Shown: piece by piece, positions 5,733 through 31,876 of the stretch
Layout of the letters: every line of letters starts with the position of its first letter
Position numbering within the stretch: the first letter of the stretch is position 1
Assembly: GCF_013348805.1 (NCBI RefSeq)
Contig: NZ_CP054690.1
Location: 248,001-312,000, forward strand
Length of the DNA: 64,000 nt
Direction of reading: 5' to 3'
Source of the DNA: Rhodococcus sp. W8901
Lineage (GTDB): Bacteria; Actinomycetota; Actinomycetes; Mycobacteriales; Mycobacteriaceae
Notes under the pieces: generated by a model
What the model was told of the DNA's origin: nothing
Database searches by the model: none
What the model saw: only the letters and a program-made list of their open reading frames with translations
Program-made: the position numbers and the translations under genes

Positions 5733-8700
5733 ATGCAAAATTCGATAGTGAGGCGCTGTGTCGTGCCACTCACAGGCACAGCGCTCGTCGCCGGGACGCT
5801 CCTGATCGGGAGCCCGGCGAATGCGGTCGTCAACACGACGAACTTCAAGAACGCATGTCAGGCATCGGCCACAATCACCGTGCACAAGGTTGCGGACACC
5901 GGGATGACTGTGGACGCTCCTGCCACGGTGGCACCGGGTGAGACATTCACCTACCGGATACAGCCGGTTGGCGCTTCGTACCCCAACTCGGACTCGGGCG
6001 CGACCACGACGAACGTGTCGCGGCTGAAGGTCGACTATCAGATTCCGGCGAACGCCACGTTCGTCAGCGCCTCGGTCGTGCCCGGCACGGCCATCAATCT
6101 CGATGGTGTGGCCCCCGGCGTCCTGAGGGTCAACGATTCCGGAAACCCTGACGCCGCAGGAAACATCCTGCGACTGTCCGGCAACAATCAGACCATCTCG
6201 AATGGGCCGAGCACCAGTACCAACAGCGAAGGTGGCATTCGGGCACCCAAGCTGAAGAAGGACCTCAACGGCAACGGGACCGGCGGTGACAGCTGGTTCC
6301 GACTGCCCGCTGTCGACGTGACCATGGTGGCTGGGTCAGCCGGTGTGATCACGCCGACGGTGCGCACAGCAGGCAGCGCCGCGAACTACAACGCCAATGA
6401 GAGCTACTACACCTTCCTGCCGCTGGCGAGCTTCTTCGGGAACCAGTGGGCGCCCACGCGGTGCACGCCGCGCGACGACAAGGGCGCAGGGCTCAACGCC
6501 GGCGCCGGCCCGCTGGCCACGATCAATGTCGTTGCTGCTCAGGTGTCGACCGCCACTACCCTCGCTGCGCCGGCCGCGGCGGAGACCGGCACCCCGGTCA
6601 CGCTGACTGCCAACGTCGCGCCCAACAACGCGACGGGCTCGGTGCAGTTCCAGGACAACGGCACCGACATCGGCTCCCCGGTGGCGGTGTCGGGCGGCTC
6701 GGCCAGCCTGGATCACACGTTCACGTCTGCCGGTTCGCACTCGGTGACGGCGGTGTTCACCGGTACCGGTAGCTTCACCGGTTCGACGTCGGTGGCTTCG
6801 ACCGTGACAGTGTCCGACCCGACCCCGGTCGATGTCGCGACGACACTGGGATTGACGGTTCCGCAGAACGCGGAGACCGGCACGGCCGTCGACCTGACCG
6901 CCACCGTGACCCCGGCGAATGCCGCGGGCACCGTGCAGTTCAAGGACAACGGCAACAACATCGGTTCCCCGGTGACGGTGGCGTCCGGCGCGGCGACGTT
7001 GTCGCACTCGTTCACCGTGGCCGGCGCACACGCGATCACGGCCGACTTCACGGGCGCACCCGGCTTCACGGGTTCGACCGCGGGAGCCCAGAACGTGACC
7101 GTCGCCGATCCGGTGGTTCCGGATGTCGAGACCACGACGACGGTGTCGGCTCCGGCCAACGCCGCGACCGGGGCCGAGGTGACGCTCACCGCGAACGTCG
7201 CCCCGCAGAATGCTTCCGGCACGGTGCAGTTCACGGCCAACGGCAGCAACATCGGTTCGCCGGTGACGGTGTCCAACGGTGTTGCGACGCTGCCGCACAC
7301 GTTCGCCACTGCCGGCTCGTACGCGGTCGGCGCAGCATTCACCGGTGACGCCGGATTCGCTGCCTCCACTGCGGCGCAGACGCAAAACGTCACTGTGACG
7401 GATCCGGTCACCACGACGACGACTGAGCTCACGGTCCCGCAGGACGCGGAGACCGGCGCAGCGGTGGACCTGACGGCGAACGTCACTCCGCAGAATGCGG
7501 TCGGTTCGGTGCAGTTCCAGGACAACGGCACCGACATCGGTCAGCCGGTGACGGTCTCGAACGGTGTTGCGACGCTGTCGCATCAGTTCACCTCGGCCGG
7601 TTCGCACAGCATCACGGCCACCTTCACCGGTGGAGCGGGATTCGCGGGCTCGACCGCGGGTGCACAGACCGTGACGGTGACCGATCCGGTGGTTCCGGAC
7701 ACGGAGACCACTACCACCGTGACGGCTCCGGGCACGGCTGAGACGGGCTCCTCGGTGACATTGTCTGCTGCGGTTGCCCCGGTTCCGACCGGTGGCACGG
7801 TGCAGTTCAAGGTCGCCGGCAGTGATGTCGGTACTCCGGTGAATGTCGATGGCACCGGTCACGCGAGCATGCCGTACACGTTCAATGCGGAGGGTTCGTA
7901 TGCAGTGACCGCGGTGTACTCGGGAACCACCGGGTTCGCGGGTTCGACGGCGTCGGCTCAGAACGTCGCGGTTTCGGATCCGGCTCCGTCGGATGTGGAG
8001 ACGAGTCTGGGGCTGACGGTTCCGGCCACGGCTGAGACGGGTGCTGCGGTGGATCTGTCTGCTGCGGTCACTCCGGCGAATGCCGCAGGCACGGTGCAGT
8101 TCTCGGTGAACGGCAGCCCGGTCGGTGCTCCGGTCACGGTGTCGGGCGGTGCGGCAACGTACACGCACACCTTTGCTGCCGCGGGCTCGTTCAATGTGAC
8201 TGCAGCGTTCACCGGTGCGGTCGGATTCACGGACTCGGCTGCGTCTGCGCAGACGATCGCGGTTTCGGATCCCACTCCGGTGGAGGCGGACACCACGACG
8301 ATGCTGAACGTCCCGGGCAACGCCAAGACCGGTGAGTCGGAGGATCTGTACGCAACCGTGTACAACGCCGCGACTGCGGAGGTCGTCCCGAGCGGCGGCA
8401 CTGTCGAGTTCTTCGACGGCGCAACGTCGATCGGAACAGCTCTGGTGGTTGACGGTGTTGCCGCATTGGCGCACACCTTCACCGCGGCGGGCACGCACAC
8501 CATCACCGCGACGTTCAGCGGCGCGACCGGGTTTGCCGGTTCCAACGCCGGGGCGAAGCAGGTCGTGGTCACGGTGCCGACAGTGGCCGACGTCGAGACG
8601 GCCACGGTCGTGACGGTGCCGGCGAACGCGACGGCCGGAACCTCGGTGCAGTTGTCGGCGCAGGTCACCGGTGCGGGTGACGTGCCGGTCACCGGTACGG

Positions 8701-8954
8701 TCCAGTTCTTCGACGGGGCCAACCCGATCGGTGACGCGGTGACCGTGGTCAACGGCACGGCGGTTCTGAACCACACCTTCACCACGTCGGGTGCGCACAG
8801 CATCCACGCGGAGTTCAACGGCGGCCAGGGCATCGCGAACTCGACCTCGGGTTCGCAGACCGTCCAGGTCTCCGGGGGCAACCCGAGCGGAAGCTTGGGC
8901 AGTCTGAGTGGACTCTTCGGCGGCCTTCTTGGTGGCTTGAAGTTCGGCTCGTAA
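5733..8954 (+). CDS. Secreted Ig-like repeat protein 1 (head type A, 8 repeats)
   Basis: This is a predicted exported protein of 1073 residues. Residues 1-31 are a signal peptide ending PANA. Residues 32-272 are a type A head with one Cys near each end (ACQAS and TRCTPR) and shared motifs NSEGGI, APKLKK and AGLNAGAGPLATI. About residues 273-1047 hold eight Ig-like repeats of the Big_3/bacterial Ig kind, each with TGxxVxLxAxVxP, GxVQFxDNG and FTGAxGFxxST. Residues 1048-1073 are a Gly/Ser/Leu tail ending LKFGS. AAGGAAGCG precedes the ATG. There is no LPXTG motif or membrane anchor. A surface or adhesive role is inferred from architecture only. It is the first gene of the eight-gene cluster. Confidence 0.85.
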   Translation: MQNSIVRRCVVPLTGTALVAGTLLIGSPANAVVNTTNFKNACQASATITVHKVADTGMTVDAPATVAPGETFTYRIQPVGASYPNSDSGATTTNVSRLKVDYQIPANATFVSASVVPGTAINLDGVAPGVLRVNDSGNPDAAGNILRLSGNNQTISNGPSTSTNSEGGIRAPKLKKDLNGNGTGGDSWFRLPAVDVTMVAGSAGVITPTVRTAGSAANYNANESYYTFLPLASFFGNQWAPTRCTPRDDKGAGLNAGAGPLATINVVAAQVSTATTLAAPAAAETGTPVTLTANVAPNNATGSVQFQDNGTDIGSPVAVSGGSASLDHTFTSAGSHSVTAVFTGTGSFTGSTSVASTVTVSDPTPVDVATTLGLTVPQNAETGTAVDLTATVTPANAAGTVQFKDNGNNIGSPVTVASGAATLSHSFTVAGAHAITADFTGAPGFTGSTAGAQNVTVADPVVPDVETTTTVSAPANAATGAEVTLTANVAPQNASGTVQFTANGSNIGSPVTVSNGVATLPHTFATAGSYAVGAAFTGDAGFAASTAAQTQNVTVTDPVTTTTTELTVPQDAETGAAVDLTANVTPQNAVGSVQFQDNGTDIGQPVTVSNGVATLSHQFTSAGSHSITATFTGGAGFAGSTAGAQTVTVTDPVVPDTETTTTVTAPGTAETGSSVTLSAAVAPVPTGGTVQFKVAGSDVGTPVNVDGTGHASMPYTFNAEGSYAVTAVYSGTTGFAGSTASAQNVAVSDPAPSDVETSLGLTVPATAETGAAVDLSAAVTPANAAGTVQFSVNGSPVGAPVTVSGGAATYTHTFAAAGSFNVTAAFTGAVGFTDSAASAQTIAVSDPTPVEADTTTMLNVPGNAKTGESEDLYATVYNAATAEVVPSGGTVEFFDGATSIGTALVVDGVAALAHTFTAAGTHTITATFSGATGFAGSNAGAKQVVVTVPTVADVETATVVTVPANATAGTSVQLSAQVTGAGDVPVTGTVQFFDGANPIGDAVTVVNGTAVLNHTFTTSGAHSIHAEFNGGQGIANSTSGSQTVQVSGGNPSGSLGSLSGLFGGLLGGLKFGS

Positions 8955-8967
8955 GTAGTTCCTGATC

Positions 8968-9009
8968 CAGGCGCGGTCTCGCCTCCATGCGGAGATGGGG
9001 CCGCGCCTG
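8968..9009 (+). terminator. Hairpin after Ig-repeat gene 1
   Basis: CAGGCGCGG and CCGCGCCTG form a 9-bp outer stem with further inner pairing, 13 bp after the stop codon. There is no clear T tract. Confidence 0.5.
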
Positions 9010-9175
9010 AGATCGTCAGATCCGAAAATGATTGTTGGCGAATGGAAATCGCTCTTGGCGGTTGCCGAGAAACGACTCTGCAACGATCAGCAAACGGTGA
9101 CGCTGCAGTCCAGCTAGCGTCGGCATTCTTTTTACACCGCTGGGTCGGGGAAGCGCATACCTGAGGGAGGATTCA

Positions 9176-12109
9176 GTGGGTTTGTCATCCTTGCGGCGGC
9201 TCGCTACACCGGTCGTAGCGGGTGTAGCGGCGGTCGGACTCTTGGTCGCGGGAAGTGGCCTGGCCTTTGCGGCCGATCCACCTCCGGCCAGCAACCAGGG
9301 CTCGTCCGACAACGTCAAGTTCAAGAAGGAAGTGATCGGTAGCAACGTCCTCCATCGAGGCGACACGGTCACGTACAAGAGCACCATCTGGGTGGACAGC
9401 GGTGTGGAGCGCTACATTCCGAAGTTCCGGGACGTGCCGCCCGCGGGGTTCACGCTGGTGTCGGGCAGCCCCAAGGTGACGTACCTGGGTGCCACGAACA
9501 AGGCCACCTTCACCAACGAGTCGGACGGCGGCGTCACCGCAAAGTGCAGCGGCAGTGGCTGCAACGCCTTCGGCAACGGGTTCATCGTCAAGAGCGGGCA
9601 GAACGTCACGCTCGAGACCAGCTACCGGGTACCGGACACTTTCGCGTTCGGTACGTATGACAGCGGCGTGCTGCTGGACGTGTGGGCGTTCTCCGGAAAC
9701 CCGAAGGGAGCCAACCCATTCAATGTGCAGGTCAGGGTGGAGGAGTTTGCCACGACCACCGCGCTGCAGGTGCCGGCTTCGGCGATGACGGGGCAGTCGG
9801 TCAACCTCACCGCGACCGTGAGCCCGGCAAACGCGAACGGCCAGGTGCAGTTCAAGGACGGCGGTGTGAACATCGGTTCGCCGGTGACGCCGGTGAACGG
9901 TGTGGCCACGTTTTCTCATCCATTCGACTCGGCCGGCGCGCACAGCGTCACCGCGGAGTTCGTCCCCGGCGCCGGCTTCTTCGGGTCGACTTCGGCCGCG
10001 CAGTCCGTCACGGTCACCGACCCTGATGTGGCGACGTCGTTGTCGTTGACGGTTCCGGGTTCGGCCCAGACGGGTGCCGAGGTGGATCTGACGGCGACGT
10101 TGTCGCCGTCGGATGCTCAGGGCTCGGTGCAGTTCTCGGTGAACGGCGCTCCGGTGGGTACGGCTATTCCGGTGTCCGGTGGTTCGGCGACGTTGCCGCA
10201 CACGTTCAACGCGGCTGACACCTACGCGGTGACGGCCGAGTTCACCGGTGCTGCCGGGTTCACGAACTCGACGGCCCCGGGACGGAACGTCACGGTCACC
10301 GATCCCGATGTAACTACCTCGCTGGCGCTTGCCGCTCCCGCTTCTGCGGTGACGGGTTCGTCGGTGGATCTCACGGCGACGGTGTCTCCCTCGGATGCTC
10401 AGGGCACGGTGCAGTTCTCGGATAATGGTGCCCCGATCGGTTCTCCGGTTGTCGTGGTGAATGGTGTTGCGACGTTGCCGCATACGTTCACCTCTGCGGG
10501 CTCGCACAGCATCACTGCCGATTTCACGGCCGGCCCCGGTTTCGTGGATTCGTCGGCTGCGGCCCAGTCGGTGACGGTGACGGATCCTGATGTGACGACG
10601 TCGGTGTCGTTGACGGTGCTGGGTACGGCTCAGACCGGTTCCGAGGTGAGCCTGTCGGCGACGGTGGCTCCGGCTAATGCTCAGGGCACGGTGCAGTTCA
10701 AGGTCGACGGTGTCGCGGTGGGTTCGCCTCAGACGGTGTCGGGTGGTGCTGCGACGCTGCCGTATACGTTCGGTGCTGCGGGTTCGTACTCGGTGACCGC
10801 TGAGTTCACGGGTGCGGCCGGGTTCACGGATTCGACTTCGTCGGCTCAGAACGTCACGGTTTCGGATCCGGATCAGCAGACGTCGTTGTCGTTGACGGTG
10901 CCGGGTTCTGCGGTGACGGGTGCGTCGGTGGATCTTTCGGCGACGGTTACTCCGTCGAATGCTCAAGGAACGGTGCAGTTCTCGGTCAACGGCAGCACGG
11001 TTGGTGCTGCAGTGACGGTGTCGGGTGGTTCGGCGACTCTGGCGCACATGTTCAATGTCGCTGACACGTACGCGGTGACGGCGGAGTTCACCGGTGCTGC
11101 GGGTTTCGCGGGCTCTACCACTTCGGCCCAGACGGTGACGGTGACTGATCCGGATCAGGAGACCACGACGACGGTGTCGGTGCCGGCGACCGCTACGACT
11201 GGTGAGCAGGTGAGCCTGTCGGCTCAGGTGTCACCGCCGAACGCTCAGGGTTCGGTGCAGTTCAAGGTCGACGGTGTCGCGGTGGGATCGCCGCAGATGG
11301 TGTCAGGTGGTGTTGCGACGCTGCTGTACACGTTCAATGCTGCTGATACATATTCGGTTACGGCCGAGTTCACGGGTGCTACCGGGTTCACGAACTCGAC
11401 TGCCACGGGTCAGAACATCACGGTGACCGACCCCGCTCCGGTCGACATCCTGACGGTGACGTTGCTGGGTGTTCCGGGTTCGGCGACGACCGGCGTGGAG
11501 ACCACGCTGTCGGCGACGGTGCAGGCGCAGAGCGGGACAGCTGTCCCGACGGGAATGGTGGAGTTCCGTGACGGCGATTCGCTGATCGGTTCGCCGGTAG
11601 CCCTGCTGAACGGCTCGGCGTCACTTCAGCACACGTTCACCGCCCCGGGGACGCGTCAGATGACCGCGGTGTTCCAGCCCGACTCGGGCTTCGCGGGATC
11701 CACGTCGACGCAGCGTCCGGTCGAGGTGTCCGCGCCGAACCCCGTGGACGTCCAGACGTCGGCGGTCATGACGTCGACTACATCCGCGACGGCCGGCACG
11801 CCGTTCACGTTGAGGGCTCAGGTGATCGGTGCGCAGTCGCTGCCGGGCACCGTGCAGTTCTTCGACGGTGGCGTCGAGATCGGTCAGCCGGTGCCGGTGG
11901 TGGGCGGCTTCGCTGAGGTCGCGCACACCTTCACCCTGAGCGGTCCGCATCAGATTCACGCGGTCTACTCGGGTGGCCCGGGCGTGGCGGGTTCGACGTC
12001 CCAGGTGCAGGTGCTCGATGTCGCCGAGTCCGGTGACGGCACGGGCAGCTTCGGGTCGTTGGGGACGGGGTCTCTCGGCAGCCTGAGCGGGCTGCGGTTC
12101 GGGTCCTGA
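9176..12109 (+). CDS. Secreted Ig-like repeat protein 2 (head type C, 8 repeats)
   Basis: This 977-residue exported protein starts at a GTG with GAGGGAGG upstream. A signal peptide ends LAFA/AD near residue 32. Residues 33-191 form a type C head with a CX4C pair (CSGSGC) and a DUF11-like pattern (RDVPPAGFTLVSGS). Residues 192-950 hold eight Ig-like repeats, several nearly identical in DNA to those of gene 3. The tail at 951-977 is Gly/Ser-rich and ends SLGSLSGLRFGS. The same CX4C head occurs in gene 6. The 221-bp gap upstream shows no clear copy of the GGACGTTTGT element. Function is unknown; an envelope surface protein is likely. Confidence 0.85.
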   Translation: MGLSSLRRLATPVVAGVAAVGLLVAGSGLAFAADPPPASNQGSSDNVKFKKEVIGSNVLHRGDTVTYKSTIWVDSGVERYIPKFRDVPPAGFTLVSGSPKVTYLGATNKATFTNESDGGVTAKCSGSGCNAFGNGFIVKSGQNVTLETSYRVPDTFAFGTYDSGVLLDVWAFSGNPKGANPFNVQVRVEEFATTTALQVPASAMTGQSVNLTATVSPANANGQVQFKDGGVNIGSPVTPVNGVATFSHPFDSAGAHSVTAEFVPGAGFFGSTSAAQSVTVTDPDVATSLSLTVPGSAQTGAEVDLTATLSPSDAQGSVQFSVNGAPVGTAIPVSGGSATLPHTFNAADTYAVTAEFTGAAGFTNSTAPGRNVTVTDPDVTTSLALAAPASAVTGSSVDLTATVSPSDAQGTVQFSDNGAPIGSPVVVVNGVATLPHTFTSAGSHSITADFTAGPGFVDSSAAAQSVTVTDPDVTTSVSLTVLGTAQTGSEVSLSATVAPANAQGTVQFKVDGVAVGSPQTVSGGAATLPYTFGAAGSYSVTAEFTGAAGFTDSTSSAQNVTVSDPDQQTSLSLTVPGSAVTGASVDLSATVTPSNAQGTVQFSVNGSTVGAAVTVSGGSATLAHMFNVADTYAVTAEFTGAAGFAGSTTSAQTVTVTDPDQETTTTVSVPATATTGEQVSLSAQVSPPNAQGSVQFKVDGVAVGSPQMVSGGVATLLYTFNAADTYSVTAEFTGATGFTNSTATGQNITVTDPAPVDILTVTLLGVPGSATTGVETTLSATVQAQSGTAVPTGMVEFRDGDSLIGSPVALLNGSASLQHTFTAPGTRQMTAVFQPDSGFAGSTSTQRPVEVSAPNPVDVQTSAVMTSTTSATAGTPFTLRAQVIGAQSLPGTVQFFDGGVEIGQPVPVVGGFAEVAHTFTLSGPHQIHAVYSGGPGVAGSTSQVQVLDVAESGDGTGSFGSLGTGSLGSLSGLRFGS

Positions 12110-12129
12110 CACCTCTCGACTGACGAAGA

Positions 12130-12165
12130 CTGTGGCCCCCGGACCTGATGGTCCGGGGGCCACAG
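12130..12165 (+). terminator. Strong hairpin terminator after Ig-repeat gene 2
   Basis: A perfect 16-bp stem (CTGTGGCCCCCGGACC and its complement) with a TGAT loop starts 20 bp after the stop. Confidence 0.8.
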
Positions 12166-12203
12166 TCGTTCCACTGGTCGAATCCCTCGTTCGATCCTGA
12201 TCT

Positions 12204-12223: not shown

Positions 12224-12261
12224 TCGAGCCGCATTTCAGACGCGGAGTCGGGCTGCGGTTG

Positions 12262-12290: not shown

Positions 12291-12383
12291 GCGCCCCGGA
12301 CTCGATCCCCTCAGCGCGATGTCCCAGGTCGTACCTGATCCGTTGAGTTGGCGGCCGTCGAGTCGTCGTCGAGAGGGAAGTGC

Positions 12384-15300
12384 ATGGTTGGCAGGGGAGT
12401 ACGCCGAATAATCGGCGGCATAAGTGTTTTCGCCTTATCTGCGGGCTTCGCGGCGAGCCTCGGCATGGGGGCGGCTGGTGCCGCGCCGGCGTCGGTCGGC
12501 TGGAGCGACGGCAACAGCAAGTTCACGCGGACGGTAAGCAACTCCACGCCGTCGGTGGGGGAGACCGTCACGGTGTCGACGAAGTTCGAGCGCACCGGCG
12601 GTACGGTGGAGTGGTTGCAGGCGGTGAAGGACCTCCACCCGACCTGTATGACGTATGTCAGTGGAAATACTTCCGGTCCTGAGATCGCCGCGGACTACGT
12701 CCGGGTGACGGGGAACTGGCCGGTGTATCCGAACATCAGTCCTAAGTCGCAGACCTTCGAATTCACCTACTTGGTGGGCGCGAACTGTGCCCGCGCGACC
12801 CCGTTGATGACGACGATGCATTACGGGGGCAGCCTGGGCAGCGGCACGTACCCCGACAAGGGCCCGACGATCACCGTCGCGAAGGACGCCACCACGACGA
12901 CGTTGGCCGCGGTGCCGACTCCGATCATGACCGGACAGTCTGTCACGTTGAGTGCGACGCTGACCGGCGCCGCGCAGGGCAGCACGATCGAGTTCTACGA
13001 CGGCGCAACGAAGCTCGGTGAGGGACAGTCGAACGCGTCGGGCGTCGTGACCTACGTGTGGACGCCGACCACGGCGGGTGCCCGGAGTCTGTCGGCGAAG
13101 TTCCCGGGCACGGCGATCGCGGCCTCGTCGCAGTCCGCCGCGCAGAACGTGCAGGTGAACGCCCCGGTTGCAACCAGCGCCGCCTTGTCGGTCCCGGGAA
13201 CTGCCGTGACCGGCACTCCGGTGACCCTGTCCGTGGCGATGACGCCGTCGAACGCGCAGGGTTCGGTGCAGTTCAAGGACAATGGTTCGAACATCGGATC
13301 GCCGGTGACGGTGTCCGGTGGCCAGGCGTCGCTGCAGCACACCTTCACAGCTACCGGCGCGCACAGCATCACCGCCGACTTCGTGGCCGGTTCCGGTTTC
13401 GTGAATTCGTCGGCAGCGGCGCAGACCGTGACGGTCGCGGATCCTGATGTGGCGACGTCGTTGACGGTAGCGGCTCCGGCTTCTGCTGAGACGGGTGCGT
13501 CGGTGGATTTGTCGGCGACGGTGTCTCCGTCGAATGCTCAGGGTTCGGTGCAGTTCTCGGTGAATGGGTCTCCGGTGGGTGCGGCGGTTCCTGTGTCGGG
13601 TGGTTCGGCAACGCTGCCGCATACGTTCGGTGCTGCTGGTTCGTATTCGGTGACCGCTGAGTTCACGGGTGCTGCCGGGTTCACGGGTTCGACCGCTGCG
13701 GCGCAGTCGATCACCGTCACCGATCCTGATGTTGCGACGTCGTTGACGGTTGCGGCTCCGGCTTCTGCTGAGACGGGCGCTTCGGTGGATCTGTCGGCGA
13801 CGGTGTCTCCGTCGAACGCGCAGGGTTCGGTGCAGTTCAAGGACAATGGTTCGAACATCGGATCGCCGGTGACGGTGTCCGGTGGCACGGCTACCCTTCC
13901 GCACACCTTCACGACGGCTGGTTCGCACAGCATCACGGCCGATTTCATTGCCGGCTCTGGTTTCGTGAATTCGTCGGCGTCGGCGCAGTCGGTAGCGGTC
14001 ACAGATCCTGATGTGACGACGTCGTTGTCGTTGGCGGTTCCGGGTTCGGCTCAGACCGGTTCGTCGGTTGATCTGACGGCGACGGTGTCTCCGTCGGATG
14101 CTCAGGGTTCGGTGCAGTTCAAGGACAACGGCACGAATATCGGTTCGCCGGTGTCGGTGTCGGGTGGTTCGGCGACCCTGCCGCATACGTTCGCTGCGGC
14201 GGGTGCGCACAGCATCACGGCCGATTTCATTGCCGGTTCCGGGTTCGCGAACTCGTCGGCGTCGGCGCAGTCGGTGACGGTGACCGATCCTGATGTGACC
14301 ACGTCTCTGACGGTTGGTGTTCCGGCTTCTGCGGAGACGGGTGCCGAGGTTGATCTGACGGCGACGGTGACGCCGGCGGATGCTGCAGGCACGGTGCAGT
14401 TCTCGGTGGACGGCACTGCTGTCGGTGGCCCGGTGACGGTGTCAGGTGGTACGGCGACGTACGCGTACACGTTCACTGCCGCTGAAACCTATGCGGTGAC
14501 GGCGGAGTTCACCGGTGCTGCCGGGTTCACGAACTCGACTGCCACGGCGCAGAACATCACGGTCACCGACCCCGATCAGGCGACGTCGTTGTCGTTGACG
14601 GTTCCGGGTTCGGCTCAGACCGGCTCCGAGGTTGATCTGACGGCGACGGTGTCGCCGTCGAATGCTGCAGGCACGGTTCAGTTCAAGGACAACGGCACGA
14701 ACATCGGATCCCCGGTAGCCGTCGTCAACGGTGCTGCCACTCTGCCGCATATCTTCACTACGTCGGGCGCCCACAGCATCACTGCCGATTTCGCGGCGGG
14801 CCCCGGTTTCGTGAATTCGTCGGCTGCGGCCCAGTCGGTGACGGTGACGGATCCTGATCAGCAGACGTCGCTGACGGTTGCCGCTCCGGGCTCTGCGGAG
14901 ACGGGCGCTTCGGTGAACCTGTCGGCGACGGTTAGTCCGTCGAATGCCCAGGGTTCGGTGCAGTTCAAGGTCGACGGCGCACCGGTCGGAACCGCGCAGG
15001 CGGTGTCGGGTGGTTCGGCAACGCTGCCGTACACGTTCGGTGCTGCTGGTTCGTACTCGGTGACTGCCGAGTTCACCGGCGCTGCCGGATTCACGAACTC
15101 GACCGCGGCCCCGCAAGGCATCACGGTGACGAATCCGGTTGTCCCGGATACACAAACCGTCACGGCGGTGACTGTTCCCGCGACCGGCGAGACCGGTCAG
15201 CAGGTGACGCTGTCGGCGGCGGTGTCGCCGGCTCCGACGGGCGGAACCGTGCAGTTCAAGGTGGCCGGTGCCGATGCGGGCGCTCCGGTGACTGTGGATG

Positions 15301-16100: not shown

Positions 16101-16120
16101 CTCCGTAGCTCCTGAGTGAG

Positions 16121-16152
16121 TGGCCCCCTGCCCGGTATCGGGCAGGGGGCCA
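16121..16152 (+). terminator. Strong hairpin terminator after Ig-repeat gene 3
   Basis: TGGCCCCCTGCCCG and its complement form a perfect 14-bp stem around GTAT, 20 bp after the stop. Confidence 0.8.
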
Positions 16153-16249
16153 TTCGTCCTTCACCGGCGGATAATTCCTTGTTTCGTGTAGCGAAAGAAC
16201 AGCATCCGACCAGTTCGTTCGTTCGGTCGTTGTCGTCAAATGGCTAACT

Positions 16250-16259: not shown

Positions 16260-16356
16260 CTTAGAAACTGACACACGTTCCAGTGGGAGGGTCTATCCTT
16301 CCGGCTCGGGAGCTCAGCAACCGCGGCGCCCTTCGACTGTTTGTTCAGGGAGTTTG

Positions 16357-18663: not shown

Positions 18664-18731
18664 GCGGAAACGAAACGATGCGCGAGCGAATGACGAAAAC
18701 GACGACGTGGCACGAGGAACGGGAGATGGGC

Positions 18732-20765
18732 ATGTCGAGTAGGACCAAGCGGAGGCTGGTGGCCGCCGCGGGTGTGGCCGCGCTGTCGGCGGGGCTCACC
18801 GTCGTTCTCGGCGCGGGTACGGCCGGTGCCGCGTCGGACTCGGTGACCTGGAACGACGGCAGCACCAAGTTCACGCGGACGGTGAGCAACACGACGCCGA
18901 ACGAGGGCGACGTCATCACCGTTTCGACGAAGTTCGAACGGACGGCGATTCCCGGCGAGTACATCTATGCCGTCAAGGATCTTCATCCGACGTGCCTGAC
19001 GTATGTCGACGGGTCGGCGAAGGTGAACGGTTCGGTGCGTGGGTTGGAGAGCCAGGGCGCCGACTTCGCACGGGTCCAGGGGTCGTCCGTGGAATGGCCC
19101 GTGGGCGCGTTGATCAACGGTAAGCCGCACACGTTCGAGTTCTCGTATCGCGTCGGTGCGGACTGTGCGCGTGGGGTGGCGTTGACGTCGGCGATGCATT
19201 ACAGCGGATCGCTGGGTTCGGGGGAGTACAACAACAAGGGTCCGTCGATCACAGTCGCGAAGAACACCACCACCACGGCGCTGGCCGCGGTGCCGGGTGC
19301 GCAGGTCGGGAAGTCGGTGACCTTGAGTGCAACCGTGACCGGTGGCGCGGAGGGCAACCCGGCCGACTTCTACGACGGCCCGGCCAAGGTCGGTTCGGGT
19401 CAGCTGAACGCGTCGGGTGTGGCCACCTTCGCGTGGTCGCCGTCGACGGCCGGAGTGCGGTCGGTGCAGGCCAAGTTCGCCGGCACGCCGTTCGCGAACG
19501 GATCCGAGTCGGGCGTGCAGTCGGTGTCCGTCGCCGAGGCCGACGTCCCGACCACCACGACCGTGACGGTGCCACCGAGCGCCCTCACCGGCACCGCCGT
19601 GAACCTCACCGCCAAGGTCGAGCCCGGGATCGCCTCCGGCACGGTGCAGTTCAAGGACGGCGACACGAACATCGGTGCACCGGTTCCGGTCACCGCCGGC
19701 ACAGCTCAGGTGTCTCGCACATTCGCCTCGGCGGGCACGCATCCGATCACGGCGGCCTTCACCGGCGTCGGTTTCGTTTCGTCCGCCTCTGAGCCGCAGC
19801 TGGTTTCGGTCACCGATCCGGATCTGAAGACCACGACGACGGTCACCGCGCCGTCGGCCGCTCAGACCGGTGCCGCGGCGACGCTGTCGGCGTCGGTCAG
19901 CCCGAAGCCGACCGGCGGAACCGTGCAGTTCAAGGACGGCGCCACCGCCATCGGCGGCCCTATCGCCGTCGTCGACGGCGCTGCGACGCTCGACCACGCC
20001 TTCACGTCCGTCGGCAGTCACCGCATCACCGCGACGTACTCGGGCGCAGCGGGATTCGAGCCGTCGACGTCGCCGCCGCAGTCCGTCTCGGTGACCGATC
20101 CCGTCGTGTCGCCCCGTGGAACGGTGACGTTGCTCAGTGTGCCCGGCGAGGCCAAGTCGGGCGTCGTCACTGATCTCTGGGCGACGGTCCGGACGTCGGC
20201 CGGTGTCGCCGTCGACGGTGGCACGGTCCAGTTCCGCGACGGCGGGGCCGATCTGGGCGCCCCGATCGCGGTGACCGATGGTGTGGTGAGGCTGCCACGC
20301 ACGTTCAGTGGCGTTGGTGCACATGCGATCTCCGCGGTGTTCTCCGGAGTTTCATCGCTCGACGGGTCGACGGCCGTCACCCGAATGGTGAACGTGACGG
20401 CACCGGCGCCGACCGATGCCGACACCGCGACGGCATTGACAGTTCCGGCCGGCGCGGCCAGTGGCAGCACCGTCCGGTTGTGGGCCTCGGTGGTGTCGTC
20501 GGGCCCCGTCGACGGGACCGTCCAGTTCTTCGACGGTGACACGCCGATCGGGGAGGCCGTCGAACTGGTCGACGGCGTCGCCACGCTCGACCACGCGTTC
20601 ACCACGTCCGGTGCCCACCGGATCACCGCGGTCTACTCCGGTGCGGCAGGCCTGAAGGGTTCGTCGTCGGATGTGCGCGTCGTCGAGATCACCTCGACCG
20701 AAACGGCACCCGGCGGCACCACCGGCACGGGCAGCCTCGCGGGCCTGCCCAGCTTCGGGTCGTAG
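18732..20765 (+). CDS. Secreted Ig-like repeat protein 5 (head type B, 5 repeats)
   Basis: This 677-residue exported protein is read from the ATG at 18732 (MSSRTKRRLVAAAG), preceded by GGGAGA. This start aligns with MSDKNTRR and MSDRRTRR in genes 7 and 8. Earlier in-frame starts at 18660 and 18726 are possible. The signal peptide ends TAGA/AS. The type B head (to about 177) has SKFTRTVSN-like STKFTRTVSN, LHPTC and GADCARGV. Residues 178-655 hold five Ig-like repeats. The tail ends GSLAGLPSFGS. It follows gene 4 closely, so the two form a pair with different heads in one transcript. Confidence 0.84.
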   Translation: MSSRTKRRLVAAAGVAALSAGLTVVLGAGTAGAASDSVTWNDGSTKFTRTVSNTTPNEGDVITVSTKFERTAIPGEYIYAVKDLHPTCLTYVDGSAKVNGSVRGLESQGADFARVQGSSVEWPVGALINGKPHTFEFSYRVGADCARGVALTSAMHYSGSLGSGEYNNKGPSITVAKNTTTTALAAVPGAQVGKSVTLSATVTGGAEGNPADFYDGPAKVGSGQLNASGVATFAWSPSTAGVRSVQAKFAGTPFANGSESGVQSVSVAEADVPTTTTVTVPPSALTGTAVNLTAKVEPGIASGTVQFKDGDTNIGAPVPVTAGTAQVSRTFASAGTHPITAAFTGVGFVSSASEPQLVSVTDPDLKTTTTVTAPSAAQTGAAATLSASVSPKPTGGTVQFKDGATAIGGPIAVVDGAATLDHAFTSVGSHRITATYSGAAGFEPSTSPPQSVSVTDPVVSPRGTVTLLSVPGEAKSGVVTDLWATVRTSAGVAVDGGTVQFRDGGADLGAPIAVTDGVVRLPRTFSGVGAHAISAVFSGVSSLDGSTAVTRMVNVTAPAPTDADTATALTVPAGAASGSTVRLWASVVSSGPVDGTVQFFDGDTPIGEAVELVDGVATLDHAFTTSGAHRITAVYSGAAGLKGSSSDVRVVEITSTETAPGGTTGTGSLAGLPSFGS

Positions 20766-20773
20766 CCATCCGT

Positions 20774-20807
20774 GAGGAGGGCGGCGGCGAGATCCGCCGT
20801 CCTCCTC
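20774..20807 (+). terminator. Hairpin terminator after Ig-repeat gene 5
   Basis: GAGGAGGGCGGCGG pairs with CCGCCGTCCTCCTC (one G-U) around a short loop, 8 bp after the stop. Confidence 0.75.
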
Positions 20808-20837
20808 GGGCGGGTGTAACGAAAACTCGCTGATATC

Positions 20838-20857
20838 GGACGTTTGTTCTATAAAGA
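20838..20857 (+). promoter_or_regulatory. Shared promoter element before Ig-repeat gene 6
   Basis: GGACGTTTGT is followed after four bases by TAAAGA, as at 12204 and 22343. GGAGTCGGGC lies 71 bp further on, the same offset as in the copy at 22343. It predicts a leader of about 155 nt. Confidence 0.55.
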
Positions 20858-21015
20858 TCGAGACGGGCTCCGAGTGCCATTGCGGCACATCGAGCACGGT
20901 CGAACGTTGGAGTCGGGCCGGCGGTCGACGAATCATTTGCACATGCGTTCGTATGCGCTGCGTGGAGTCGGTGTCCCCACCGACGCGCGGGGTGGACGCT
21001 CTGGAAGGAGTCGGA

Positions 21016-22263
21016 ATGGCCCGATCGGTGATGCGGAGAACCGTGTCGAAGATGCTCGTCGGGGCGATGGCGGTCGCCACGCTCGGAGTCGGACAGGCGG
21101 TCCTCGGCGGCGGCGTCGCTGCGGCCGATCCGGTGTCGCAGACGGTGACGACGGACAACATCAAGGCGACCAAGACGATCGACAAGCCCAACGCTTTCCC
21201 GGGGGACACGGTGGTCTCCACGGTGACGTTCCAAACGACCAACATCATCGACCGGTATCTGCAGAACTTCACGGACCACCCGCCGCAGAACTACGTCCTG
21301 CAGGGCGTCACCGCCAACGTGTGGCGCGGCGACTCGGTGAGCGGCGGATGGAACAAGTCGGGGCAGTTCGACGGCAGCGCGACTCAGGATTCGGTCACGG
21401 GGTTGGTGCGGCTGGACTGGAAGGGACCTGGCAACTGCGTCGCTGCATGGTGCCGTCTGGGGCTCCTAAACAAGGGCGCGACCCTGACATTCACCTACAA
21501 GGTGGCGGCGGACGCTCAGCCAGGCCCGCGAACTACGGGTATGGAGTTCGACATCTACTCGTTCAACAACACGCAGCGGTGGGTCCCCCTCAACCAGCTG
21601 AACCTGTCGGTGCAGCAGCCGGTCACGAACACGACCACCGCGGTGACGGTTCCGCCGACGGCCGACAAGGGTGCACCGGTGACCCTGTCGGCGACCGTGA
21701 CGCCGTCGAACGCGTCCGGCACGGTGCAGTTCAAGGACGGCAACACGAACATCGGCGGGTCCGTGCCGGTGGCCGGGGGCATCGCAAGCATGTCGCACAC
21801 GTTCACGACCGACGGATCCCATGCGATCTCTGCGGAGTTCTCGGGCAGCGCCGGATTCTCCAACTCGAGTGCGGCAGGGCGTCTCGTCCAGGTGTCCACG
21901 CCGGACCCGAGTGCCAAGGAATCGGCGACGCTCATGACCGCTCCCGATAATGCGACCGCCGGCACCTCGGTGCGTCTCAGCGCGCAGGTCTCGAGCACGG
22001 CGCCGCTCACCGGTACGGTCCAGTTCTACGACGGCGGTAACCCGATCGGACCCCGTATCCCTGTCGGCAACGGTGTCGTCGGCATCGATCACATCTTCAG
22101 CACGACCGGCCCGCACCAGATCAGCGCGTCCTTCACCGGCGGACCCGGTGTGAGGGGCTCTTCGTCCACCTCGCAGACCGTGCAGGTCGCTGACGCGCCT
22201 ATCTCGCCCGGCACCGGAAGCCTCGGAAGCCTCGGTGGGGGAAGCTCGACGTTCGGCTCCTGA
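21016..22263 (+). CDS. Secreted Ig-like repeat protein 6 (head type C, 2 repeats)
   Basis: This is the shortest member at 415 residues. The ATG at 21016 (MARSVMRRTVSK) has GGAAGGAG upstream; the in-frame ATG at 20953 lacks one. The signal peptide ends GVAAA near residue 36. The type C head (about 37-204) has a CX4C pair (CVAAWC) as in gene 2 and DUF11-like spacing. There are only two Ig-like repeats (205-392). The tail ends GSLGSLGGGSSTFGS. Having the same head on two repeats here and eight in gene 2 shows that stalk length varies independently of the head. Function unknown; predicted exported. Confidence 0.83.
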   Translation: MARSVMRRTVSKMLVGAMAVATLGVGQAVLGGGVAAADPVSQTVTTDNIKATKTIDKPNAFPGDTVVSTVTFQTTNIIDRYLQNFTDHPPQNYVLQGVTANVWRGDSVSGGWNKSGQFDGSATQDSVTGLVRLDWKGPGNCVAAWCRLGLLNKGATLTFTYKVAADAQPGPRTTGMEFDIYSFNNTQRWVPLNQLNLSVQQPVTNTTTAVTVPPTADKGAPVTLSATVTPSNASGTVQFKDGNTNIGGSVPVAGGIASMSHTFTTDGSHAISAEFSGSAGFSNSSAAGRLVQVSTPDPSAKESATLMTAPDNATAGTSVRLSAQVSSTAPLTGTVQFYDGGNPIGPRIPVGNGVVGIDHIFSTTGPHQISASFTGGPGVRGSSSTSQTVQVADAPISPGTGSLGSLGGGSSTFGS

Positions 22264-22275
22264 TCCGATGCTCGA

Positions 22276-22311
22276 TTCGAGGCCCCCTGCGCATGCGCAG
22301 GGGGCCTCGAA
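22276..22311 (+). terminator. Perfect palindromic terminator after Ig-repeat gene 6
   Basis: This is a 36-bp perfect palindrome centred on GCATGC, with arms beginning TTCGAGGCCCCCTGC. It starts 13 bp after the stop. Confidence 0.8.
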
Positions 22312-22342
22312 TCTTTCGCGGTAACGGTTTCCACACAGATCT

Positions 22343-22362
22343 GGACGTTTGTTCGATACAGT
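22343..22362 (+). promoter_or_regulatory. Shared promoter element before the gene 6-like remnant and Ig-repeat gene 7
   Basis: GGACGTTTGT is followed after four bases by TACAGT. It lies 164 bp before the remnant ATG at 22507, close to the 178 bp seen between the same element and the start of gene 6. The distance to the gene 7 start is 356 bp. Confidence 0.55.
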
Positions 22363-22403
22363 GGGGCGCGTTTCACTCGACGTTTGTGGTCGAGAAGAAC
22401 GAG

Positions 22404-22433
22404 CCAGGTGTGTGGAGTCGGGCCGACACCTGG
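22404..22433 (+). other. Leader hairpin displaying GGAGTCGGGC
   Basis: CCAGGTGT and ACACCTGG form a perfect 8-bp stem whose 14-nt loop holds GGAGTCGGGCCG. The same 10-mer occurs 71 bp after the promoter element at gene 6 and 40 bp after it at gene 3. Confidence 0.35.
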
Positions 22434-22506
22434 GCGGAAGAACACGTGGTCCCGGTGATTCAAGGATCCGGAACCACGGTGACCGTGCTCTGAGGGGAGT
22501 CGGAGA

Positions 22507-22608
22507 ATGGCCCGATCGACGACGCGATTCACTTCGTCGACCGCGGGAACAGCGGCGGAGTGCCGCGCGGCCCGCGTGTTCGGATCGTCATACCGATACG
22601 CCCTCTGA
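22507..22608 (+). pseudogene. Decayed start of a type C Ig-repeat gene
   Basis: CTCTGAGGGGAGTCGGAGA followed by ATGGCCCGATCG closely matches the ribosome site and first codons of gene 6. The frame encodes only 33 residues (MARSTTRFTSSTAGTAAECR...) before a TGA, and no signal peptide or head follows. The promoter element, the GGAGTCGGGC motif and this start keep the spacing seen at gene 6, so this looks like a duplicated gene 5' end that lost its body. A short leader peptide is an alternative reading. Confidence 0.5.
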
Positions 22609-22698
22609 CTGGCACAACCATGTCCACCACGCGAGTCGCCCCAGTCGTCCGCAACGTGGGTTCGATGTTCATCGAGGTTCGTTGTCGAGAGGAAATGC

Positions 22699-24114
22699 AT
22701 GTCTGACAAGAACACCCGTCGTGTACTCGCCGGCCTGAGTGCCTTCGCAGTCGCCGCCGGATTCGCGGTCACTGCCGGTGTCGGTGCGGCGAGTGCGGCA
22801 CCGGGATCCATTACGTGGGACGACGGCAGCAGCCGGTTCACGCGGACGGTGAGCAATACGACGCCGAACGAGGGTGACATCGTGACGGTGTCGACGAAGT
22901 TCGAGCGGACCGGAATTCCGGTGGAGTGGATCCAGGCGGTGAAGGATCTGCATCCGACCTGTTTCACGTATGTCAGCGGAAACACTTCCGGTCCGGAGGT
23001 GGCTGCGGATTATGTGCGGGTGGCGGGGAACTGGCCGGTGTATCCGAACATCAGCCCGCAGTCGCAGACTTTCGAGTTCAACTATCGGGTGGGCGCGGAT
23101 TGTGCTCGGGAGACCCCGTTGATGACGACGATGCACTACAGCGGCAGCCTGGGTAGCGGCACATATTCGAACAAGGGCCCGACGATCACGGTGAACAAGA
23201 ACACCACGTCGACGACGCTCGCGCAGGTTTCCGGCGCCCAGGTCGGGTTGGTAACCACTCTGGCCGCGACGGTGACCGGTGGCGTGCAGGGCGACGCCGT
23301 CGACTTCTTCGACGGCGGTGCCAAGATCGGCACCGGAACCCTCGACGCGAACGGCACCGCCACCTACGCGTGGACGCCCGGGGCGCGTGGCACGCACAAC
23401 CTCAAGGCGAAGTTCCTCGGTACCGCGAGGGCCACCGCTTCCGAGTCAGCCGTGCAGGGTATCGAGGTCATCCAGGTGGACCTTCCGTCGAGCACGGCGA
23501 TCGCCGCCGTCTCGGGCGCCCAGGTCGGCAAGGCCTCGACGCTCAAGGCCACCGTCAACCCGGCCGCCGCCGGCGGAACCGTCAAGTTCACGGACGGCGG
23601 ACAGCTCCTCGCCGAGGTCGCTGTGAACGGTGCCGGTGAGGCCACCTACGCGTGGACGCCGACGACCGACGGCAGCCACACGATCAAGGCGGAGTTCTCC
23701 GGCCGGAACGGAGTCACAGGCTCCAACTCCAGCGCGACCGTGACTGTCGCCGCTAAGCCGGTGAACAACACCGAGTCCGGCACCGTCGTCTCGGCCGGCA
23801 ACGGTCAGGTCGGTGTGGCACAGACCATCTCGGCGCAGGTCACCGGGAGTGCCGGCGGCACCGTGACCTTCAAGGACGGCAACACCGTCATCGGCACGGC
23901 CACGGTCGACGGCAGCGGCCGCGCATCGGTCACCTGGACTCCGGCGACCCAGGGGCAGCGCGTCATCCGGGCCGAGTACTCGGGTGCCGGCACCGTGAAT
24001 GCCTCGTCCGATGACCTGTCGATCACCGTCGCGCCGGCAGGCACCGGCGGCGATGGTGGCGGCACCGGCAGTGCCGGTTCGCTCGGCACGATGTTCGGTT
24101 CGCTCGGCGGATAG
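22699..24114 (+). CDS. Secreted Ig-like repeat protein 7 (head type B, 3 repeats)
   Basis: This 471-residue exported protein starts at an ATG preceded by GAGAGGAAATGC, the same ribosome-site context as gene 8. The signal peptide ends ASA/AP near residue 34. The type B head (to about 167) has SRFTRTVSN, LHPTC and GADCARETPL and is very close to that of gene 3 through ISPQSQTFEF. There are three Ig-like repeats (168-444), of the VSGAQVG subtype rather than the ETG subtype. The tail reads GTGSAGSLGTMFGSLGG, so the FGS is followed by three residues, unlike the other seven. It lies 585 bp before gene 8's repeat-rich relative and ends in its own hairpin. Confidence 0.84.
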   Translation: MSDKNTRRVLAGLSAFAVAAGFAVTAGVGAASAAPGSITWDDGSSRFTRTVSNTTPNEGDIVTVSTKFERTGIPVEWIQAVKDLHPTCFTYVSGNTSGPEVAADYVRVAGNWPVYPNISPQSQTFEFNYRVGADCARETPLMTTMHYSGSLGSGTYSNKGPTITVNKNTTSTTLAQVSGAQVGLVTTLAATVTGGVQGDAVDFFDGGAKIGTGTLDANGTATYAWTPGARGTHNLKAKFLGTARATASESAVQGIEVIQVDLPSSTAIAAVSGAQVGKASTLKATVNPAAAGGTVKFTDGGQLLAEVAVNGAGEATYAWTPTTDGSHTIKAEFSGRNGVTGSNSSATVTVAAKPVNNTESGTVVSAGNGQVGVAQTISAQVTGSAGGTVTFKDGNTVIGTATVDGSGRASVTWTPATQGQRVIRAEYSGAGTVNASSDDLSITVAPAGTGGDGGGTGSAGSLGTMFGSLGG

Positions 24115-24134
24115 TCGCCTCGAGTTTCGATTTC

Positions 24135-24168
24135 CCTCCGGCCCAGGACCTCGGTCCCGGGCCGGAGG
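24135..24168 (+). terminator. Hairpin terminator after Ig-repeat gene 7
   Basis: CCTCCGGCCC pairs with GGGCCGGAGG, with further GGA/TCC pairing inside, 20 bp after the stop. Confidence 0.7.
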
Positions 24169-24221
24169 TTCCACTTCTCACTCCATGGCGGTCGGCGAAG
24201 TCCGTCGTCGAGAGGAAACCT

Positions 24222-26540
24222 ATGTCTGACAGAAGGACTCGCCGACGGATGGCCGTGGCGGTGGGGGCTGCTGCTGCGGTGGCTGCGGGGTTTGCGGTCA
24301 CTGCCGGTGCCGGCGCGGCGAGCGCTGCACCGGGTTCGGTGACATGGCAGGACGGTGACAGCAAGTTCACGCGGACGATCAGTGATGTGAACCCGAAAGA
24401 GGGTGACATCGTCACGTCGAAGACCACGTTCCAGCGGACTGCTGGTGTGGTGGAGTACATCTACGCCGTCAAGGATCTGCATCCGACGTGTCTGACGTAT
24501 GTCGAGGGTTCGGCGAAGGTTGATGGTTCTCCGCGGGGTCTCGAGAGCAAGGGCGCTGACTTCGCGCGCATCGAGGGGTCTTCGATCGAGTGGCCGGTGC
24601 GGGCGCTGGTGAATCCGAATACTCGTACGTTCGAGTTCTCGTATCGGGTGGGTGCGGATTGTGCGCGTGAGACGCCGTTGATGACGACGATGCATTATGG
24701 CGGTTCGTTGGGTTCGGGGACGTATGCGGACAAGGGGCCGACGGTCACGGTCGCGAAGAACGCGACGTCGACGTCGTTGGCTGCGGTGTCGGGTGGTGTG
24801 CAGGTGGGGCAGTCGGTGACGCTCAGTGCCACGGTGTCCGGTGCGGTGGCGGGTGATTCGGTCGATTTCTATGACGGTGCGACGAAGGTCGGGACCGGTG
24901 TGTTGAATGCGTCGGGTGCGGCGACGTTCGCGTGGATGCCGTCGTCGGCGGGTGCGCATTCGTTGCAGGCGAAGTTTGCGGGGACGGCGAAGGCGAAGGC
25001 GTCGGAGTCGGCGCCGCAGTCGGTTTCGGTGTCGGTGGCGACGTCGATGACGGTGTCGGCTCCGGCGTCGGCGTTGACGGGTTCTGCGGTGACGCTCACG
25101 GCGACGGTGACGCCGTCGAATGCTCAGGGTTCGGTGCAGTTCAGGGATGGGTCGACGAATATCGGTGTGCCGGTGGTGGTGTCGAATGGTACGGCGACGT
25201 TGCAGCACACGTTCGACACGGCCGGCAACCACAGCATCGCGGCGGACTTCATCGCCGGAACCGGGTTCGTGAATTCGTCGGCACCCGCGCAGGCGGTGTC
25301 GGTGAGCGTCCCGGATGCGGCGACCGCCACCACGCTCACCGTCCCGTCCACGGCGGACACCGGTGCCCAGGTGACGCTGTCGGCGGACGTCGCCCCGAAT
25401 CCCGGTGGCGGCACTGTGCAGTTCAAGGACAACGGCGCGGACATCGGTGCGCCGGTTGCGGTGTCGAACGGTAAGGCCGACCTGCCGTACACCTTCTCGG
25501 AGGCGGGTCAGCACAGCATCACGGCCGTCTTCTCCGGCGCTCCCGGATTCGTCGGATCGACGTCGCAGGCACAGTCGGTGGCGGTCAGCGTGCCGAACGT
25601 CGCGACCACCACGACCCTGACCGGCCCGGCCACCGCCGAGACGGGGCAGCAGGTGACCCTGACCGCGAACCTCGATCCGGCGAACGCCTCGGGTTCGGTG
25701 CAGTTCAAGGACGGCAACGTCAACATCGGTAACGCAGTGGCGGTCTCGAACGGCAAGGCCACCACACAGACGCCGTTCACGACGGCCGGTCAGCACAGCA
25801 TCACCGCGGTCTTCACCGGCAACACGGGCTTCAAGAACTCGACGTCGGCGGTTCGGGTCGTGACGGTGAGCACCGCGCTGGTACAGACGTCGCTGGAGCT
25901 GTCGGTGCCGTCCGCGGCGCAGACGGGCACGTCGGTGACCCTGACCGCCACCACGACCCCGGCCGACGCGTCGGGCACCGTGCAGTTCACCGAGAACGGC
26001 GTCGCCATCGGCGGCCCCGTCACCGTGGCGAACGGTGTCGCGAAGCTCGAGCACGCCTTCACCGCGGCCGGTGACCGCACCGTCGGCGCGACGTTCACGG
26101 GTGCATCCGGTTTCACCAACTCGAACGGAGCCTCGCAGACGGTCCAGGTGTCGGTGCCGACCCCGGACGACACGGTCACCACGACCACTGTGACGGTCCC
26201 GGCGACGGCCACGGTCGGCAGCCCCGTGACGTTGTCGGCCACCGTGGCAGGCGGCACGAATCTGCCCGGCACGGTCCAGTTCTACGACGGCGACCTCCCG
26301 ATCGGTGACCACGTCTCCCTCGTCGACGGTGTCGCGAATCTGGAACACACCTTCACCACCGACGGCGCGCACCGCATCACCGCGCGCTACTCGGGCGGAC
26401 AGGGGGTCAAGGCGTCGGCCTCCGCCGAGCAGTCGGTTCAGGTCACCGCGGCGGACAACGGCGGCACCGGTAGTGCCGGTTCGCTCGGCACCATCTTCGG
26501 GTCGCTCGGCGGCGCCGGACGCTCGGGATTCGGGTCCTGA
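24222..26540 (+). CDS. Secreted Ig-like repeat protein 8 (head type B, 6 repeats)
   Basis: This 772-residue exported protein starts at an ATG with CGAGAGGAAACCT upstream. The signal peptide ends ASAAP near residue 36. The type B head (to about 179) has LHPTC and GADCARETPL. Unlike gene 7 it carries the EGSAKVDGSPRGLES insert that it shares with gene 5. Six Ig-like repeats fill 180-743. The tail has GSLGTIFGSLGG as in gene 7 and then adds AGRSGFGS, restoring the FGS end. The first part of the gene uses many G- and T-ending codons, while the part after about 25300 is C-ending, suggesting a mosaic. It is the last gene of the cluster. Confidence 0.85.
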   Translation: MSDRRTRRRMAVAVGAAAAVAAGFAVTAGAGAASAAPGSVTWQDGDSKFTRTISDVNPKEGDIVTSKTTFQRTAGVVEYIYAVKDLHPTCLTYVEGSAKVDGSPRGLESKGADFARIEGSSIEWPVRALVNPNTRTFEFSYRVGADCARETPLMTTMHYGGSLGSGTYADKGPTVTVAKNATSTSLAAVSGGVQVGQSVTLSATVSGAVAGDSVDFYDGATKVGTGVLNASGAATFAWMPSSAGAHSLQAKFAGTAKAKASESAPQSVSVSVATSMTVSAPASALTGSAVTLTATVTPSNAQGSVQFRDGSTNIGVPVVVSNGTATLQHTFDTAGNHSIAADFIAGTGFVNSSAPAQAVSVSVPDAATATTLTVPSTADTGAQVTLSADVAPNPGGGTVQFKDNGADIGAPVAVSNGKADLPYTFSEAGQHSITAVFSGAPGFVGSTSQAQSVAVSVPNVATTTTLTGPATAETGQQVTLTANLDPANASGSVQFKDGNVNIGNAVAVSNGKATTQTPFTTAGQHSITAVFTGNTGFKNSTSAVRVVTVSTALVQTSLELSVPSAAQTGTSVTLTATTTPADASGTVQFTENGVAIGGPVTVANGVAKLEHAFTAAGDRTVGATFTGASGFTNSNGASQTVQVSVPTPDDTVTTTTVTVPATATVGSPVTLSATVAGGTNLPGTVQFYDGDLPIGDHVSLVDGVANLEHTFTTDGAHRITARYSGGQGVKASASAEQSVQVTAADNGGTGSAGSLGTIFGSLGGAGRSGFGS

Positions 26541-31859: not shown

Positions 31860-31876
31860 GAGCAAACCGGATCGTC

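Follow-up and report, generated by a model that had tools for sequence, protein, structure and literature searches.

Among the closest described counterparts of the proteins treated here are the O-mycoloylated proteins of Corynebacterium (PorA, PorH, ProtX, Cmt1 and others), which are exported or lie in the mycomembrane and contain flexible segments rich in Ser and Gly (PMC11066868, PMC12632848). Published O-mycoloylation sites follow no strict motif: the modified residue is Ser or, more rarely, Thr, within flexible Gly/Ser/Ala-rich segments. Close Cmt1 orthologues are reported from Rhodococcus and Nocardia (PMC11066868). PorH, which has 57 residues, carries its modification at S56, close to the C-terminus (PMC12632848), and surface assembly of PorA-PorH in C. 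glutamicum requires O-mycoloylation (PMC11066868, PMC12632848). Targeting and retention of mycomembrane proteins other than small porins are described as poorly known (PMC12632848). An array of eight plus-strand genes (5733-26540) in a 64,000-nucleotide stretch of Rhodococcus sp. W8901, hereafter the window (248001-312000 of G000:C1, the one contig of a 5.71 Mb genome), encodes proteins that each combine an N-terminal head, a stalk of immunoglobulin-like (Ig) repeats and a short C-terminal tail. We lean towards C-terminally anchored surface display in the mycomembrane for these proteins, because they appear to be exported and carry an N-terminal head, a stalk and a C-terminal segment that is common to otherwise unrelated proteins. 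Their layout resembles that of LPXTG-anchored adhesins of the MSCRAMM type from Gram-positive bacteria, which also place an N-terminal head on a repeat stalk with a C-terminal anchor; however, the eight proteins have neither LPXTG nor a transmembrane anchor, and their host has a mycomembrane. They also differ from the O-mycoloylated Corynebacterium set, which consists of small porins, enzymes and other envelope proteins; the portions of the sources used here mention no Ig-stalk protein with a conserved FGS end (PMC11066868, PMC12632848).

The host is a Prescottella species (Rhodococcus equi group) as judged from its nearest named relatives, because the closest named matches to one head class (head B) come from Rhodococcus sp. 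OK519 and from Prescottella agglutinans, P. equi and P. defluvii. In all eight proteins, a hydrophobic N-terminal segment is followed by a head (~140-240 residues), 2-11 Ig domains and a tail (~16-28 residues). Big_3_5 (PF16640) lies above its gathering score in all eight, with 48 stretches far over the curated cut-off (8+8+11+5+5+2+3+6 along the array). A previous interpretation made from the letters of the window, the sequence-only reading, is thereby borne out in its eight consecutive plus-strand genes for exported Ig-repeat proteins (open reading frame (ORF) list and Pfam), its 48 repeats, its signal peptides (8/8) and its common tail (8/8, with gene 7 ending FGSLGG and gene 4 having a short form). 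Gene 1 (5733-8954) encodes a signal peptide, head A, eight Ig domains and a tail ending in GSLGSLSGLFGGLLGGLKFGS; gene 2 (9176-12109) encodes head C of the C2 subtype, eight Ig domains and a tail ending in GSLGSLSGLRFGS, and gene 3 (12348-16100) has head B, 11 Ig domains and the same ending, GSLGSLSGLRFGS. Gene 4 (16354-18663), with head A, five Ig domains and a short tail ending in GSIDIPAFGS, overlaps by 4 nucleotides with gene 5 (18660-20765), which has head B, five Ig domains and the ending GTGSLAGLPSFGS. Head C of the C6 subtype, two Ig domains and the ending GSLGSLGGGSSTFGS make up the product of gene 6 (20953-22263), and head B recurs in gene 7 (22699-24114; three Ig domains, ending GSAGSLGTMFGSLGG) and gene 8 (24222-26540; six Ig domains, ending GSAGSLGTIFGSLGGAGRSGFGS). 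By eye, the listed TTG/GTG starts of genes 3 and 5 appear too early, and the real start of gene 3 is probably downstream of its listed TTG. The 20.8 kb were said to hold no interrupting gene, and none other was seen; minus-strand ORFs that overlap the array genes in the ORF list are best read as shadow frames of GC-rich repeat DNA.

The tail, which the sequence-only reading had not singled out, is the most informative part of these proteins. In its common form, GTGSLGSL is followed after a few residues by FGS and the stop codon, and the composition of the tail is 31% Gly, 17% Ser and 11% Leu, although the published O-mycoloylation motif with which this can be compared is loose. Distinct ends (last 30 residues) were scored for two features together, a GS with a small or hydrophobic residue after it and [FLIW]G[SGLF] within the last 15. 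This criterion was set after the Prescottella tails had been viewed, so that the genus figure (105/110 distinct ends) is descriptive, and it is the ends from other genera, from other families and from non-Ig ORFs that serve as the comparison. The test is passed by 49/58 ends from six other genera of the family and by 0/21 Ig proteins from other families of the order; the latter come from the 21 of 29 fetched loci that yielded a closed Ig ORF, and Ig domains are often not C-terminal there, which makes the contrast less strict. Non-Ig ORF ends of the same stretches, mostly shadow frames and neighbouring genes, pass in 11/915 cases. FGS ends themselves occur in 60/110 Prescottella ends, 47/58 from other genera, 0/21 from other families and 1/915 control ORFs. 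The ends of the G009 assembly (79% completeness, array genes broken by frameshifts) were set apart and pass in 8/12 cases. Among the five Prescottella ends that fail are L037 and L059; in L059 (4162-5418, G002) head A and one Ig domain are followed by a transmembrane segment and RSRRK where the FGS tail would be, as if one anchor had been swapped for another.

Three exported proteins of the host genome carry the tail without Ig domains. One, at L072, is an RCC1-like repeat protein, and the other two, at L099, are NHL-type propellers; these folds were named by eye from the repeats and not by profile search. Within the genus, 7/9 distinct NHL-like ends finish in FGS, and of 16 RCC1-like ends 12 have GSL or GSI, ten pass the two-part test and three end in FGS. 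The tail is thus modular, being also found on exported NHL-propeller and RCC1-like proteins, and it is not obligatory among the latter. Genome-wide counts of FGS followed by a stop codon, set against a reversed-pattern control and summed for 9/31 genera and 2/15 other families, have supporting value only. Sites exceed the control in ten Prescottella genomes (134:32) and in genera g21 (104:19), g23 (177:64) and g4 (72:18), and are near or below it in g50 (52:71), g22 (86:82) and g3 (44:49). The control is not neutral, because two other families also exceed it (f15, 103:63; f14, 204:144), and a ratio near 1.5 is background. Genus g9 reaches 79:23 over nine genomes without a Big_3_5 match, where the tail may sit on other proteins. 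The host genome has 42 such sites against 20 in the control; they include six Ig genes of the window, the three other exported proteins with a GS...FGS tail and two remnant-like sites, and the remainder appear to be chance matches, shadow frames or genes for cytoplasmic proteins. Two small FGS-ending ORFs, L085 and L086, are putatively coding, have no obvious signal peptide and fall in the PorA/PorH-type size range.

The proposed mechanism is that the eight proteins would be exported by the Sec route as rod-shaped surface proteins, each with an N-terminal head (A or B/C), stabilized by one disulfide, on top of a stalk of 2-11 Big_3_5 domains. The short Gly/Ser/Leu tail ending in FGS would retain the protein in the mycolic-acid outer membrane, stalks would hold heads at gene-specific distances from the cell, and the array would be a set of displayed binding modules. 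The analysis shows the architecture, the conservation, the sharing of the tail and the lack of the usual anchors in the eight proteins, whereas export route, surface location, the role of the tail as an anchor and the binding role are inferences. Simple tests exclude anchoring by sortase or as lipoproteins for all eight: none has LPXTG, none has a C-terminal transmembrane helix (no later 19-residue window exceeds 1.54 on the Kyte-Doolittle scale) and none has a lipobox with Cys after the signal peptide by a simple pattern. Sortase-anchored MSCRAMM-like adhesins would share the head-stalk-anchor layout, and sortase islands are present in R. equi (PMC2947987), yet with neither LPxTG nor a C-terminal transmembrane segment that alternative is already refuted for these eight and hardly credible.

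A more specific suggestion, which we hold only tentatively, is that one or more tail serines would be O-mycoloylated by a mycoloyltransferase, as in mycomembrane proteins of Corynebacterium; by analogy the tail fits the published sites loosely. Several observations weigh against this suggestion and against anchoring in general. The published sites have no strict motif, so that sequence cannot identify the tail as one of them (PMC11066868), and in the sources used here O-mycoloylation is demonstrated in Corynebacterium only (PMC11066868, PMC12632848). The two mycoloyltransferases in the window are nearest to Ag85C and PS1, with Cmt1 further off. A terminal Ser is kept in only 70/110 distinct genus ends (50/58 elsewhere), the full tail is missing in 6/16 RCC1-like ends, and two of nine NHL-like ends lack it (L174, which comes from G009, and L183, a fragment). 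The proteins could also simply be secreted. Broader still, and doubtful, is the idea that GTGSLGSL...FGS might be a general C-terminal sorting or anchoring signal of many mycolic-acid bacteria, a mycomembrane counterpart of LPXTG carried by Ig-stalk, NHL and RCC1-like proteins, whose serines accept mycolate, with the array presenting paired A and B/C heads at fixed heights.

If the proteins were secreted and released, the tail would serve as a linker, or as a signal for release or export. The absence of a transmembrane helix or sortase motif from all eight, the low hydropathy of the tails (mean of the last 25 residues -0.23 to 0.47) and the occurrence of head A alone, without Ig domains or tail, as a signal-peptide protein on Rhodococcus plasmids would all suit release. 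This explanation nevertheless seems to us improbable, although of some weight, since the C-terminal end is strongly conserved across three unrelated folds, its terminal position suits an anchor better than a linker, and L059 has a transmembrane anchor instead. An anchor without lipid is similarly improbable; here a hydrophobic Gly/Leu tail would insert by itself into the mycomembrane or cell wall, or assemble there with a partner protein. Several tails are extended Gly/Leu segments, such as GLFGGLLGGLKFGS in gene 1, and the last serine is not universal, yet many tails reach only 9-20 residues beyond the last Ig domain, which is short for self-insertion, and the GS motif is kept in 108/112 ends. 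The genes are clearly paralogous and their stalk repeats expand, as they would in ordinary secreted Ig-repeat proteins grown by duplication, with a tail shared through descent alone; we consider this distinctly unlikely, because it leaves the tail on NHL and RCC1-like proteins unexplained, and the tail stays constant while heads at the fifth position drop to 41-43% identity.

The heads, for which the sequence-only reading proposed three classes, reduce to two superfamilies on profile comparison by hhalign, because B and C align with each other and neither aligns with A: A in genes 1 and 4, and B/C in genes 2, 3, 5, 6, 7 and 8. Heads B and C align at 98.0 and 98.8% probability (E 2e-13 and 1e-16), and mutual profile alignments of B, C6 and C2 reach 98.0-99.7%. 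Head A aligned with neither B nor C, and no head profile aligned with the Ig profile by the same method. In each of the eight mature chains the only cysteines are two in the head, as would be expected for an exported disulfide-bonded domain. Head B has a weak match to DUF11 (PF01345; E 0.0017, 19.1 bits, below the 24.6 cut-off), heads A and C have no DUF11 match, and an NCBIfam scan gave one chance match only, below cut-off. Against solved structures, the head A profile had no match, and four distinct matches of the head B profile at E up to 1 (best 0.0022) fall at positions 136-231, the Ig part, and none on the head. The heads had no match to a known enzyme; a match to an enzyme family with a different role had been named as an outcome that would speak against display. 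The adhesin and phage-facing roles that the sequence-only reading considered are conjectural, and head A had no match in 50,697 phage records, a search run with head A and not with heads B/C. Head B had no plasmid match, and head A matches seven Rhodococcus plasmids; in L101-L103 a lone head A with a signal peptide, without Ig domains or tail, is annotated as hypothetical on such plasmids. Genes for heads A and B overlap or nearly touch (-20 to 12 bp) in eight genomes (window 16354-20765, L032, L033, L035, L045, L047, L050 and L051), and such close neighbours may indicate that heads are paired. As a rule, pairing was not upheld, with a same-strand B/C gene within 60 bp for only 17/42 head-A genes, and it stays a lead.

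Some stalk lengths are conserved and others variable, with constant Ig counts for genes 4 and 6 and variable inner repeats in gene 3. The head-A gene at position 4 has five Ig domains in all ten genomes that have the gene (one summed across a stretch edge), and gene 6 has two in the seven genomes with an intact copy in the table. Between gene 3 and its L025 orthologue, the first and last three Ig domains pair best by position (84, 87, 88 and 86% DNA identity), and the inner domains are of two alternating types whose number varies, for totals of 11 in gene 3 and 13 in L025. Stalk length would be set through gain and loss of such inner repeats, and heads would be replaced at some positions. The genome has 58 Big_3_5 matches in total; the ten outside the window belong to three genes, two close to 60 kb and the third at 1.99 Mb, whose products share the heads and tails of the array. 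A query of Ig domains plus tail gave no plasmid match at E 1e-10.

The build is not the one-off that the sequence-only reading supposed: it forms a genus-wide array and has relatives in other genera of the family, whose members (GTDB) we take to be mycolic-acid bacteria. Among the 14 genus genomes, head A occurs in 14, head B in 13 and head C (gene 6 query, E up to 0.001) in 12. On one side the array is flanked by serS with its neighbour and on the other by plsC-HAD, in the host and in 12/12 relatives fetched (13 of the 14 genus genomes, G008 left out), with only the serS neighbour within the stretch in G013 and the two flanks on different contigs in G011 and G012. Called ORFs per array range from 2 (G007) to 12 (G009), and in each of the two arrays counted at 11 one gene is truncated by the edge of a contig or stretch. 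SerS is 90-97% identical across arrays, and for the head at the fifth position the figures are 72-77% in four genomes and 41-43% in three; by these comparisons, head classes vary more than SerS.

Ig repeats as such are widespread, since Big_3_5 matches occur in 56/151 genomes of the family and 111/249 of the order. Like those of other actinobacterial Big_3_5 proteins, the stalk domains exceed the curated cut-off by a wide margin. The proteins sampled from other families of the order differ in having no A or B/C head at these loci and the tail in 0/21 ends; 6/21 have a basic stretch at the end, in most cases preceded by a hydrophobic segment. Searched across Mycobacteriales, as the sequence-only reading had envisaged, the heads turn up in other genera of the family and were not found in 29 loci of other families; among genomes examined, the head-Ig-tail proteins are confined to this bacterial family. 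All these loci were chosen as the best Ig matches, not at random. Six other genera were read (g12, g19, g21, g23, g24 and g46), and five have the build. Arrays of ~10 or more such genes occur in g23; g24 has Ig proteins without A or B/C heads and with a different C-terminal end, and the g19 genome G080 has GTGSAG-type tails without FGS. The view that no system of this build had been described stands, in that no account of these proteins or of the tail was found in openly licensed literature, a search that lay mostly outside subscription journals. A term search of the main text of the R. equi 103S genome paper finds no occurrence of Ig-like, immunoglobulin or adhesin (PMC2947987).

The array was earlier taken as one uninterrupted operon-like cluster, and a single operon was dropped after hairpins were found between genes. 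Separate transcription units (1, 2, 3, 4-5, 6, 7 and 8) are likely, because hairpins follow genes 1, 2, 3, 5, 6 and 7 and genes 4 and 5 are the sole overlapping pair. On the plus strand, hairpins lie after gene 1 (8968-9009, z -5.6, terminator-like, no U tract), gene 2 (12128-12167, z -9.5), gene 3 (16118-16155, z -7.4), gene 6 (22274-22313, z -6.4) and gene 7 (24135-24168, z -5.3), and a hairpin-folding stretch follows gene 5 (20766-20830, z -5.7). Folding of the slice 3' of gene 8 is not significant (z -1.4). The hairpins, which lack U tracts, presumably act as terminators; a terminator scan gave 7 matches against 10.9 in shuffles because it demands a T run. A sigma-70 promoter scan found nothing, and Rfam gave no match.

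Elsewhere in the window, 36493-56550 is an arabinogalactan/mycolate locus with glf, glfT2, decaprenyl-phosphate phosphoribosyltransferase, the two mycoloyltransferases and FadD32, along with AftB-like and Culp6-like cutinase matches, both below cut-off, and what we take, from domain order, to be a Pks13-like synthase. As evidence for anchoring, this neighbourhood is weak. A protein with Ser/Thr kinase, AAA/NB-ARC, TPR and LuxR DNA-binding domains is encoded at 28581-31859, and a perfect inverted repeat with 25-nucleotide arms and 2 nucleotides between them lies 3' of this kinase-LuxR gene (31876-31927).

A short conserved tail on unrelated exported folds makes mycomembrane targeting directly testable. 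If the proposal is true, the tail would be an undescribed address label for the mycomembrane, and the Rhodococcus group would gain a named family of long surface stalks, with heads on which attachment, aggregation or contact with phages might depend.

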